Assembly: GCA_024640405.1 (NCBI GenBank)
Contig: JAHEFB010000002.1
Coordinates: forward strand, 62,001 to 126,000
Direction of reading: 5' to 3'
Length of the DNA stretch: 64,000 nucleotides
Origin: Alphaproteobacteria bacterium
Lineage (GTDB): Bacteria > Pseudomonadota > Alphaproteobacteria > Rhizobiales > Aestuariivirgaceae
A model generated the notes under the pieces. That model worked only from the letters and a program-made list of their open reading frames with translations, was not told the DNA's origin and did not search any database. Made by a program: the position numbers and the translations under genes. Below are positions 56,089-60,762 of this stretch, piece after piece. Position 1 is the stretch's first letter; the number at the start of each line of letters is the position of its first letter.

Positions 56089-59000
56089 TTAACTGCACCC
56101 GCTCGTTGAGCCGCAGGTATCGCACTTCATGCAGGTGCCGTTGCGCAGCAGGGTGAAGTTGCCGCATTCGCCGCAGCTGTCGCCTTCATAGCCTTTCATG
56201 CGTGCCTCGACGCGGCGTTCGGCATCGGTTTTCACCTTGCCGTCGGAGTCTATGTCCAGAGGAACAACGGCTTCTTCACCGGCCGGTTGCAGGCTTGCTT
56301 CCACCGCCATTTCCACAGCCACATCAAGTGCTGCGGAACCTTCGGTCGCATAAGCTGCCTCGATACGCGACTGGCTGGCTGCAACCGGGTTTGCCGCAAG
56401 CGAGGACGTCGTATTGCCCGGCATCATGAATATGTTGTCAGCCAGTTTCTGCCGGGTGTATCCGGAAGACGCCACTGCCATGGCCGGCATGCCGCCTGGC
56501 GGGCAGGGGGCGGCCCCGACCTTGTCGGCCTTGCCTTCGTCTTCGCCTTTGCCCATGGCGTCGAAGCGAATGTCTGCAGGCTCGACATGCGCCAGATCGT
56601 TGCGGCTGAGATAGGAAACAGCCAGCTCACGGAAAACATAATCGAGAATCGACGTGGCGTTCTTGATCGCTTCATTGCCCTGCACCTGACCGGCCGGTTC
56701 AAAGCGGGTAAAGGTGAAGGCTTCAACATACTCTTCCAGCGGCACGCCATATTGCAGGCCAAGTGACACCGCGATGGCAAAATTGTTCATCATGGCGCGG
56801 AAGGCAGCGCCTTCCTTGTGCATGTCGATGAAGATCTCACCCAGTTTGCCGTCATCATACTCACCGGTGCGAAGATAGACCTTGTGTCCGCCGACAATGG
56901 CCTTCTGGGTATACCCCTTGCGCCGTTGCGGCAGTTTTTCACGTTCGCGCGCGATCACCTTTTCGATGACTTTCTCGACAACCTTTTCCACCCGCTGCGT
57001 CTGCGGCTGGGTTGCAGCTACCTGTTCGATGACGTCATCTGCGTCTTCTTCCTCGTCCTCGATCAGTGCTGCATTGAGCGGCTGGCTGAGCTTGGAACCA
57101 TCGCGGTACAATGCGTTGGCCTTCAGCGCCAGCTTCCACGACAGCATGTAGGCCGCTTGGCAGTCTTCAACGGTTGCCTCGTTTGGCATGTTGATGGTTT
57201 TCGAAATGGCACCGGAAATGAACGGCTGCGCTGCCGCCATCATGCGAATGTGGCTGTCGACCGACAGGAAGCGCTTGCCGAGACGGCCGCATGGGTTGGC
57301 ACAGTCGAAGACCGGCAAGTGCTCGTCCTTCAGTTCCGGCGCGCCTTCCAGCGTCATTGCACCGCACACGAAGATGTTGGCGGCTTCAATGTCCGCCTTG
57401 CCGAATCCGAGGTGGCTCAGCAGGCAGAAGTTGAAATCGTCCAGCTGTTCGGCAGAAACGCCAAGCGTCTTGGTGCAGAATTCTTCGCCCAGTGTCCACT
57501 TGTTGAACACGAACTTGATATCGAACGCCGATGCCAGGCCATCTTCAACGATCTGCAGTTCCCTTGAGGTAAAACCCTTGGCCTTCAGGGTGTCATGATT
57601 GACGCCCGGCGCATCCGACAGGGTGCCATTGCCCACGGCATACTTGATGATGCCCTCGATCTGTTCTTCAGAATAACCCAGCGTGTTCAGTGCTGCAGGC
57701 ACTGCGCGGTTGATGATCTTGAAGTAACCACCACCTGCCAGTTTCTTGAACTTGACCAGCGCAAAGTCAGGTTCGATGCCGGTGGTGTCGCAATCCATAA
57801 CCAGACCGATTGTGCCGGTTGGCGCGATCACCGTGGCTTGCGCGTTGCGGTAGCCGTGTTTGGTGCCAAGCTCAACGGCACGGTCCCACGCAGCAACGGC
57901 ATGTTCCAGCAGTTTCTTGTCGTCACAGTTTGCATGATCGAGCGGAACCGGGTTCACGGCAAGTTTCTGATAGCCCTGTGCCGATCCGCGAGCCGCCAGC
58001 TGGTGGTTCTTCATGACCCGCAACATGGCGGATGCGTTTTTCTTGTAGCCGGGGAAGGGGCCAAGCTCGCCTGCCATCTCGGCAGACGTTGCATAGGACA
58101 CGCCGGTCATGATGGCCGAGATTGCACCGCAGATTGCCCGGCCCTCGTCTGAGTCGTACGAGATCCCCGAGGTCATCAACATGCCGCCAATGTTCGCAAA
58201 ACCCAGACCAAGTGTGCGGAACTCATAGGAGCGCTTGGCGATTTCCTTGGACGGGAACTGGGCCATCAGCACCGAGATTTCCAGTACCATGGTCCACAAC
58301 CGCACGCTGTGTTCAAAACCTTCGATGTCAAATTTCGAAGTGGACTTGTCCAGGAAGGTGAGCAGGTTCAGCGAGGCAAGATTGCAAGCGGTATCGTCCA
58401 GGAACATGTATTCCGAACACGGGTTGGACGCACGGATGTCGCCGGATGCCGGGCAGGTGTGCCAGTCATTGATCGTGGTGTGGAACTGGATGCCGGGATC
58501 AGCGCACGCCCATGCCGCATTGCCGACCTTCTCCCACAGATCACGGGCGTCGATGGTTTTCGCAACACCGCCGGCCATCCGCCATTTCAGATCCCAGGAC
58601 GAACCGTTTTCAACGGCGCGCAGGAATTCATCGGTGACACGAACCGAGTTGTTTGAATTCTGGCCGGACACGGTGCGGTAGGCTTCACCGTCCCAGTCGG
58701 TGTCATAGGTGTCAAATTCGATGTCGTTGAAGCCTTGCGAGGCAAACTGCAGGACCCGCTTGATGTAGGCATCCGGCACATGCGACTTGCGGGCGTCCTT
58801 GATGGCGCGTTTCAGGGCAGGGTTCTTGCCCGGATTATAGCAGTCATCACCGGGGCCGTCGCAGTTGACGCAGGCCTTCATGATGGTTTTCAGGTGTTGC
58901 TGGGTGACTTTGGAGCCGGTGACCAGCGCAGCAACCTTTTCTTCTTCCTTCACCTTCCAGTCGATATAGGCTTCGATATCGGGATGATCGATGTCGACAA

Positions 59001-59844
59001 CCACCATTTTTGCAGCCCTGCGCGTCGTGCCGCCGGACTTGATGGCGCCCGCCGCCCGGTCGCCAATCTTCAGAAAGCTCATCAGGCCGGATGACTTGCC
59101 GCCGCCGGACAGGGGTTCGTTTTCACCACGGATATAGGAGAAATTGGATCCGGTGCCGGAACCGTACTTGAACAGGCGTGCTTCACGAACCCACAGGTCC
59201 ATAATGCCGCCGTCATTCACCAGGTCGTCCGAGATCGACTGGATGAAGCAGGCGTGCGGCTGGGGATGCTCATAGGAAGAGGCGGACTTGGTCAGCTTGC
59301 CGGTCTGGAAATCGACATAGTGGTGACCCTGGCCCGGGCCGTCTATGCCATAGGCCCAGTGCAGGCCGGTATTGAACCACTGCGGGCTGTTCGGCGCGCA
59401 CCGCTGTGTGGCCAGCATGTTGACCATTTCTTCGTAAAACGCCAGTGCGTCCGCTTCGGCATCAAAATAACCGCCTTTCCAGCCCCAGTAGGTCCAGGTC
59501 CCGGCCAAACGGTTGAACACTTGTTGGGCAGACATCTCCGATGAATAGCGCTCTCCTTCCGGCAGTTCTGCCAGGGCTTCGGTGTCTTCCACCGAGCGCC
59601 AGAGCCAGGACGGAACGGTATTTTCCTCCACCTTTTTCAAGCGTGCGGGTACGCCAGCCTTGCGAAAGTACTTCTGCGCAATGATATCGGAAGCCACCTG
59701 GCTCCAGGACTTCGGTACCTCGATGTCCTTGAGCTGGAACACAATTGACCCGTCAGGGTTCTTGATTTCGCTGGTTGCCTTGCGAAACTCCACCCCCGCA
59801 TATGGACCCTTGCCTTCGACCGTAAAGCGCCGTTCTACCCGCAT
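56089..59844 (-). CDS. nrdJ: Vitamin B12-dependent (class II) ribonucleoside-diphosphate reductase
   Basis: ORF 1251 aa; [76 protein letters not shown]-terminal [28 protein letters not shown]. Confidence 0.97.
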
Positions 59845-60169
59845 CGTATTCCCCTATTCAAAAGCAGCGCCTACGGCTGCTTCAGTTATCCTAATTGTTC
59901 AATCCAAGCGCTTTTCAGCAGCTGTTTCTGTTCACACGACCTTACACACAGGGTTTCGCAGCAAAGCTCGCCCTTTACGCGTACATGACTTCCCAGCCCG
60001 TACGCACAAGACACAACTTCCCCGTTTGGATAGAGCGATATCACTCCGCCTTATCCAGCGCTCGACGTTTGGAGTTCGGTAATTTACTTACCTAGACGGG
60101 AAGGCCTAACTCCGAGCCGTCCCTAGCCCCGTTCCCATGCACATGAATGTAGTGCCGAATGAGGTCCGC

Positions 60170-60216
60170 CGTCAATACCTAGTGTGTTAACGAAACCCTA
60201 ACACAACATATAGTGT
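60170..60216 (-). promoter_or_regulatory. Tandem NrdR-type boxes upstream of nrdJ
   Basis: ACACAACATATAGTGT (60201-60216) and CGTCAATACCTAGTGT (60170-60185), 31 bp apart. Confidence 0.7.
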
Positions 60217-60235
60217 CCACAGCCTTGACAGGTTC

Positions 60236-60244
60236 TGTGGATAA
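60236..60244 (-). promoter_or_regulatory. DnaA box
   Basis: TGTGGATAA, exact reverse complement of TTATCCACA. Confidence 0.6.
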
Positions 60245-60403
60245 ACGGAGATAGCCACGATTCGCCCGCGAACCTCAATGTTTCTGCGACCTTGCGGCGG
60301 ACCATATGGCCAGATATGCACAATCATCCACTGGCTCGGGTTACAAAGCCGGGCCCGGGTCAGCCTGGCAGAGGTAAAATTAAATCTCTAGTTCCGGAAG
60401 TTT

Positions 60404-60422
60404 ATGGTTAACGAAGCGTTAA
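60404..60422 (-). promoter_or_regulatory. CtrA-type full site
   Basis: Reverse strand TTAACGCTTCGTTAACCAT = TTAA-N7-TTAACCAT. Confidence 0.65.
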
Positions 60423-60660
60423 CGCTCAGTTATCGCTGGTTGTATGTGCCAGGCGCAATGCACGCATAACGTGTATTTTGAATTTCCGGCAGGGGGAATC
60501 GCTGCTGCGGAGAAGAATCGGCGCTGTACGGATGTGTCTGTAACCGATCGCACGGGTTGATACCGTCCTGATCCGGCAGTTTGACATGGATCAAGGCGCA
60601 AGATCACCCGTCACCACACACTCTGCGCTGAACCGGTACCCAATCAACGGAGACGATTCC

Positions 60661-60762
60661 ATGACAACCTACGAACAATTGTATCTCGCCATGGTCATAC
60701 TCGCATTTGTGACGTTCGGCATCATGCTGGCCACGATGTCTTACCGGCAGGGTCAGAAGTAG
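60661..60762 (+). CDS. 33-aa single-TM microprotein MTTYEQLYLAMVILAFVTFGIMLATMSYRQGQK
   Basis: Read directly; GGAGACGATTCC SD spacing to ATG; one hydrophobic helix and basic C-terminus; below ORF-track cutoff. Confidence 0.6.
   Translation: MTTYEQLYLAMVILAFVTFGIMLATMSYRQGQK

Follow-up and report, generated by a model that had tools for sequence, protein, structure and literature searches.

dNTP supply must match replication, and the locus described here raises the question of which signals could bring this about for a class II ribonucleotide reductase (RNR). It lies in a 64-kb stretch of Aestuariivirgaceae DNA, hereafter the window, in which nrdJ is preceded by motifs resembling NrdR, DnaA and CtrA binding sites; a preliminary description of the sequence took these motifs to mean that nrdJ is regulated both by dNTP/ATP and by the cell cycle. 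Combining motif analysis with a survey of related promoters, we find it probable that nrdJ has a composite promoter, repressed by NrdR and receiving DnaA and CcrM/GcrA inputs, to which a CtrA-type site was added in this family. Such a promoter would probably time DNA-precursor supply with DNA replication.

nrdJ and its candidate regulators

The nrdJ product matches the NF005736 equivalog (2270.8 bits) and contains Ribonuc_red_2_N, barrel and TSCPD domains. Direct control of the enzyme by ATP/dATP through an ATP-cone is ruled out, as NrdJ has no ATP-cone and the only one in the genome belongs to NrdR, a 172-aa open reading frame (ORF) starting MRCPYCSSHDS and flanked by glyA-like and ribD-like ORFs. 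The genome also encodes GcrA, a RAMA-domain protein of the CcrM type and a CtrA with 85% identity to that of Caulobacter. We detected no class I RNR beta subunit in the genome and one further class II RNR of 778 aa (L037, contig C79:9350-10753), and therefore nrdJ is likely the main RNR enzyme, as it is in Sinorhizobium and Agrobacterium. The second class II RNR has no NrdR boxes nearby; control of it by NrdR was rejected, no box within one mismatch being present near L037.

NrdR boxes and a putative core promoter

All motifs named in the preliminary description were found in the sequence, on the nrdJ (minus) strand and with offsets of at most one base. Together with elements identified here, the region reads as follows, in window coordinates:

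60404-60422, minus strand: distal CtrA-type site TTAA-N7-TTAACCAT (palindromic TTAA-N7-TTAA), exact match
60273-60278, minus strand: TTGAGG, -35-like part of a conserved CTTGAGCTT-N7-GAATCG block, putative in function
60259-60263, strand-neutral: CcrM methylation site GANTC (GAATC on the nrdJ strand), position conserved in the family
60236-60244, minus strand: DnaA box TTATCCACA, exact, with a DnaA-type 9-mer at the same offset in the family
60213-60222, minus strand: CTGTGGACAC, weaker DnaA-like core in inverted orientation that overlaps NrdR box 1, TGTGG conserved
60201-60216, minus strand: NrdR box 1, ACACTATATGTTGTGT, exact match to ACACWANATNTWGTGT, conserved
about 60186-60202, minus strand: predicted CtrA-type site in the NrdR spacer, TTAGGGTTTCGTTAAC (TTAACGAAACCCTAAC on the plus strand), one mismatch
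60170-60185, minus strand: NrdR box 2, ACACTAGGTATTGACG, 31 bp from box 1, conserved
60170-60175, minus strand: putative -35 element TTGACG inside NrdR box 2, conserved here in family and order
60147-60152, minus strand: putative -10 element CTACAT, 17 bp downstream of the -35, in a block conserved in the genus
59845-60140, minus strand: presumed long nrdJ 5' leader (distance from predicted start site to ATG), with a hairpin at 60028-60056
56089-59844, minus strand: nrdJ, class II (B12-dependent) RNR, 1251 aa, assigned by equivalog and domains

The two NrdR-like boxes are indeed spaced 31 bp start to start, about three helical turns. Box 1 has no mismatch to ACACWANATNTWGTGT and is the sole exact match in the 4.37-Mb genome, while the best other matches in the 64-kb window have three mismatches. 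Box 2 is a weak palindrome (five mismatches), yet it retains C4 and G13, the positions read by NrdR, so that both ACACTATATGTTGTGT and ACACTAGGTATTGACG contain the conserved C and, 9 bp from it, the conserved G. In the NrdR-DNA structure from S. coelicolor, the key GC pairs are likewise 9 bp apart within a box, with 31 bp between boxes, and a dATP/ATP-loaded tetramer sits on two boxes about three turns apart and kinks the DNA (PMC9110341).

Box 2 overlaps TTGACG, with CTACAT 17 bp further downstream, and we infer that these are the -35 and -10 elements of the nrdJ promoter; the ATG at 59844 would then lie ~300 nt downstream of a start site near 60140. Since box 2 covers the putative -35, repression by occlusion would be the natural reading. 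The NrdR/-35 arrangement is retained in other Hyphomicrobiales (44 non-redundant promoters).

Survey of nrdJ promoters in related genomes

We searched for NrdJ in 60 genomes of the family, 154 genomes of the class and additional named genomes; in the latter search all 80 loci were nrdJ relatives, mostly from Hyphomicrobiales. The two NrdR boxes served as the only anchor for upstream regions, leaving the spacer and flanks free to test, which gave 42 anchored promoters in the family and 60 in the order. These were reduced to non-redundant sets of 25 family promoters and 44 promoters from other Hyphomicrobiales, and the upstream DNA itself supplied the expected counts. Class-wide anchoring beyond Hyphomicrobiales passed 49 of 88 upstream regions, most with scores too low to trust, and they were not used. 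Binomial P values overstate significance for sequences that are related, and the fixed spacing is clear nonetheless.

Across ~40 family promoters, motif positions are fixed and the flanks are scrambled: the information profile is near zero in most flanking columns, and an alignment within the genus shows the same. The preliminary description had proposed conservation of its four kinds of site as a check; all of them occur at fixed positions in related genomes, arguing that they are not there by chance.

DnaA-type and CcrM sites

The exact DnaA box on the minus strand stands as described, and no other occurs in the window (0.30 expected). Its single-genome statistics are weak, 27 of 100 shuffles containing a TTATCCACA. 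Among the non-redundant family promoters, a DnaA-type 9-mer occurs at -28 to -25 from NrdR box 1 in 12 of 25 (0.04 expected); at this conserved offset the match is exact in 8/25 and relaxed in 12/25, and about half of the family has lost it. TGTGG at -5, abutting box 1, is present in 10/25 (0.03 expected). Among the other Hyphomicrobiales, 27 of the 44 promoters have TCCAC or TTCAC just upstream, against 0.4 expected.

A fourth element, missed in the preliminary description, is the conserved GANTC at 60259-60263. It lies at -48 to -45 from NrdR box 1 in 22 of 25 family promoters (0.48 expected), and CTTGAG precedes GAATC by 10 bp in most of them. Elsewhere in the order the place differs from this upstream block: GANTC falls between -35 and -10 in 21/44 promoters (1.1 expected), and GATTC stands in the NrdR spacer in 7/44. 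In Bradyrhizobium and related lineages, GATTC inside the spacer is often accompanied by GAGTC near the -10, so that CcrM sites flank NrdR box 2 (the loci with GATTC in the spacer are L043, L046, L048, L056, L065, L070, L074, L075, L079, L085 and L105). GANTC thus appears to be the most widely conserved cell-cycle element of nrdJ promoters. Because the NrdR/-35 arrangement, GANTC and TCCAC/TTCAC all recur outside the family, the combination of NrdR, DnaA-like and CcrM sites seems to be a widespread design of nrdJ promoters in Hyphomicrobiales.

GANTC is depleted across the window (100 occurrences vs 242 in shuffles), as is expected where CcrM acts. Despite this, the 817-bp intergenic region upstream of nrdJ contains four such sites (60259, 60496, 60515 and 60655). 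A small ORF divergent from nrdJ (60661-60762, plus strand) encodes a membrane-like protein of 33 aa (MTTYEQLYLAMVILAFVTFGIMLATMSYRQGQK), with an FNR/FixK-like box, TTGACATGGATCAA, at 60581-60594, ~70 bp upstream of it; both ORF and box are kept in L004 and L005.

CtrA-type sites

The distal CtrA-type site, an exact TTAA-N7-TTAACCAT on the minus strand, is present as first reported. The pattern occurs five times in 4.37 Mb, compared with none for the reversed control pattern, and two of the further sites stand before ftsK and gcrA (L032 and L034), which are likely CtrA targets; the pattern thus appears to behave as a CtrA site in this genome. The distal site is kept in all three congeners whose sequence reaches that far (L004, L005 and L006) amid diverged surroundings, and L018 has a similarly placed site. 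It lies ~190 bp upstream of the NrdR promoter, and the transcript it serves may be a different one.

A degenerate CtrA site had also been described at 60187-60202, between the NrdR boxes. It is present, with one mismatch to TTAA-N7-TTAAC; at this stringency the window holds eight matches against 3.5 expected, so the spacer site alone would be weak. Conservation within the family adds to this: TTAAC is found at +26, between the boxes, in 19 of the 25 non-redundant family promoters (0.05 expected), and a full TTAA-N7-TTAA occupies the spacer in nine (0.01 expected). None of the 44 promoters from other Hyphomicrobiales has the spacer site, so the CtrA-type site inside the NrdR operator would be an addition in this family.

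Relative to the predicted start site, the 5' end of the spacer site is near -62 and its centre near -54. Most Caulobacter activator sites of the full CtrA type have their 5' end near -35 (PMC4287350); the spacer site does not share this placement and lies ~20 bp further upstream than is typical there. The sign of the CtrA input is the weakest step of the model proposed below.

The nrdJ leader

The presumed 5' leader (60140-59845, minus strand; likewise upstream of nrdJ in L012-L031 and L222-L241) is a candidate new structured RNA. A cobalamin riboswitch was considered and rejected, with no Rfam match in the leader at the gathering score or at E<=5. The arms of the hairpin at 60028-60056 change together in L006. 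In sister genera, two hairpins (17 pairs) stand just before nrdJ and show strong covariation, with 45 cells changed on both sides compared with 12.6 in shuffles. This candidate two-hairpin RNA corresponds to no Rfam family and gave no match outside the family; its model has no match in the genus of the window either, which carries its own hairpin.

A proposed composite promoter and its alternatives

Reading promoter elements, occupancy and the signs of the NrdR, GcrA/methylation and DnaA inputs from the observed sites, their positions and conservation, and the regulator genes, we propose the following model. A sigma-70 promoter, TTGACG-N17-CTACAT, would drive nrdJ from a start near 60140. When loaded with dATP and ATP, an NrdR tetramer would occupy the two boxes, the second of them over the -35, and repress. 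Upstream, the CcrM/GcrA site and the DnaA box, whose inverted half adjoins NrdR box 1, would couple transcription to replication initiation and fork passage, with GcrA and methylation activating in S phase and DnaA probably tuning expression around initiation. The CtrA-type site of the family sits half-way between the NrdR boxes, ~1.5 turns from each, where binding of CtrA and NrdR could be mutually exclusive or could take place on opposite faces of the DNA.

The idea that nrdJ is both dNTP/ATP- and cell-cycle-regulated is supported by the conserved site positions and by the presence of nrdR, ctrA, gcrA and CcrM-type genes, and it remains a sequence-based prediction. Its cell-cycle part needs refinement, in that about half of the family lacks the DnaA box, the spacer CtrA site is family-specific, and GANTC has to be included. 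For the order as a whole, the best reading is that NrdR represses nrdJ and that DnaA and methylation/GcrA set its timing.

A more sparing account would let only NrdR and methylation/GcrA, perhaps with DnaA, act on nrdJ; the spacer TTAAC would then be an upstream promoter element or a family-specific part of the NrdR operator, while another transcript would be driven by the distal TTAA-N7-TTAACCAT. The spacer site does abut both NrdR boxes (GTGT/TAA...GTTAAC/ACAC), is often imperfect (complete in 9/25), is confined to the family (0/44 outside) and sits further upstream than CtrA activator sites usually do. However, other Hyphomicrobiales keep the NrdR boxes around an otherwise free spacer, which suggests that NrdR does not need TTAAC, and both half-sites are conserved with the 7-bp gap of CtrA geometry; the other TTAA-N7-TTAACCAT sites before gcrA and ftsK also speak for CtrA. 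We regard this account as a serious competitor that is nevertheless somewhat unlikely. Taken to its extreme, NrdR would be the sole real regulator, and the DnaA, CtrA and GANTC motifs would reflect chance or inherited background in an intergenic region of higher AT content. The weak single-genome statistics of the DnaA box (27/100 shuffles) and of the degenerate CtrA site fit this, yet motifs at fixed offsets in the non-redundant sets are 20- to several-hundred-fold more frequent than the same upstream regions would lead one to expect, conservation drops between the motifs, and GANTC is kept upstream of nrdJ against its depletion in the window (100 vs 242 expected). Such a minimal reading is highly improbable.

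A further possibility concerns the upstream block: CTTGAGCTT-N7-GAATCG and the DnaA box could form a separate GcrA-type promoter of nrdJ, P2, with DnaA and NrdR acting as roadblocks just downstream of its start. The 10-bp spacing of CTTGAG and GAATC, conserved in most family promoters, agrees with this, as does the association in Caulobacter of a GANTC located between -10 and -35 with start sites activated 40-60 min into the cycle, in S phase (PMC4287350). Outside the genus of the window, however, no clear conserved -10 follows GAATC, and we consider P2 somewhat unlikely, although it is compatible with the composite promoter.

Comparison with known systems

As in S. coelicolor nrdRJ and E. coli nrdAB, the proposed composite nrdJ promoter has two NrdR boxes about three turns apart over the RNA polymerase site, with conserved GC pairs and an nrdR gene in the genome, and NrdR has been described as covering all RNR classes. 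Unlike in those systems, box 2 is here merged with the putative -35 and is only weakly palindromic, and predicted sites of other regulators adjoin the boxes and lie among them. E. coli nrdAB also combines DnaA and NrdR boxes upstream of a replication-linked RNR, and the two proteins act together there, DnaA being called a repressor (PMC2500167) or an activator (PMC4009431); it differs in encoding a class I enzyme, in its unrelated lineage, in having no CcrM, GcrA or CtrA, and in the order of sites.

Caulobacter nrdA resembles nrdJ in its promoter GANTC, conserved in 5/5 relatives, and in its DnaA input, which for nrdJ is predicted from sites: it belongs to the DnaA regulon and falls in delta-ccrM (PMC3973325). 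It is, however, a class I gene and is not in the CtrA regulon in the published table, and nrdJ has a CtrA-type site nested between the NrdR boxes. Caulobacter ctrA, mipZ and podJ combine CtrA, DnaA and GANTC sites at one gene (PMC4287350), but they are cell-cycle and polarity genes without a nucleotide-sensing repressor.

Each single input is already known from some RNR promoter, CtrA excepted. Our literature search returned no report of the combined inputs on nrdJ, of their order-wide conservation or of a CtrA-type site nested in an NrdR operator; no paper joined nrdJ, NrdR and CtrA, and nrdJ and CcrM appeared together only in a Caulobacter translation study. In the boldest form of our proposal, all four alphaproteobacterial cell-cycle inputs (DnaA, CcrM, GcrA and CtrA) would meet at the nrdJ promoter of this family; with CtrA placed inside the NrdR operator, a single stretch of DNA would integrate nucleotide sensing with cell-cycle phase, and replication-linked RNRs of any class would keep DnaA and methylation inputs throughout the order. 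We hold this form tentatively, at somewhat less than an even chance.

If the composite promoter operates as proposed, the replication and methylation clock that acts on the class I RNR of Caulobacter would also govern the class II enzyme of Hyphomicrobiales, a large group that includes many symbionts and pathogens, even though the two RNRs belong to different classes. The wiring would then follow function and not the gene.
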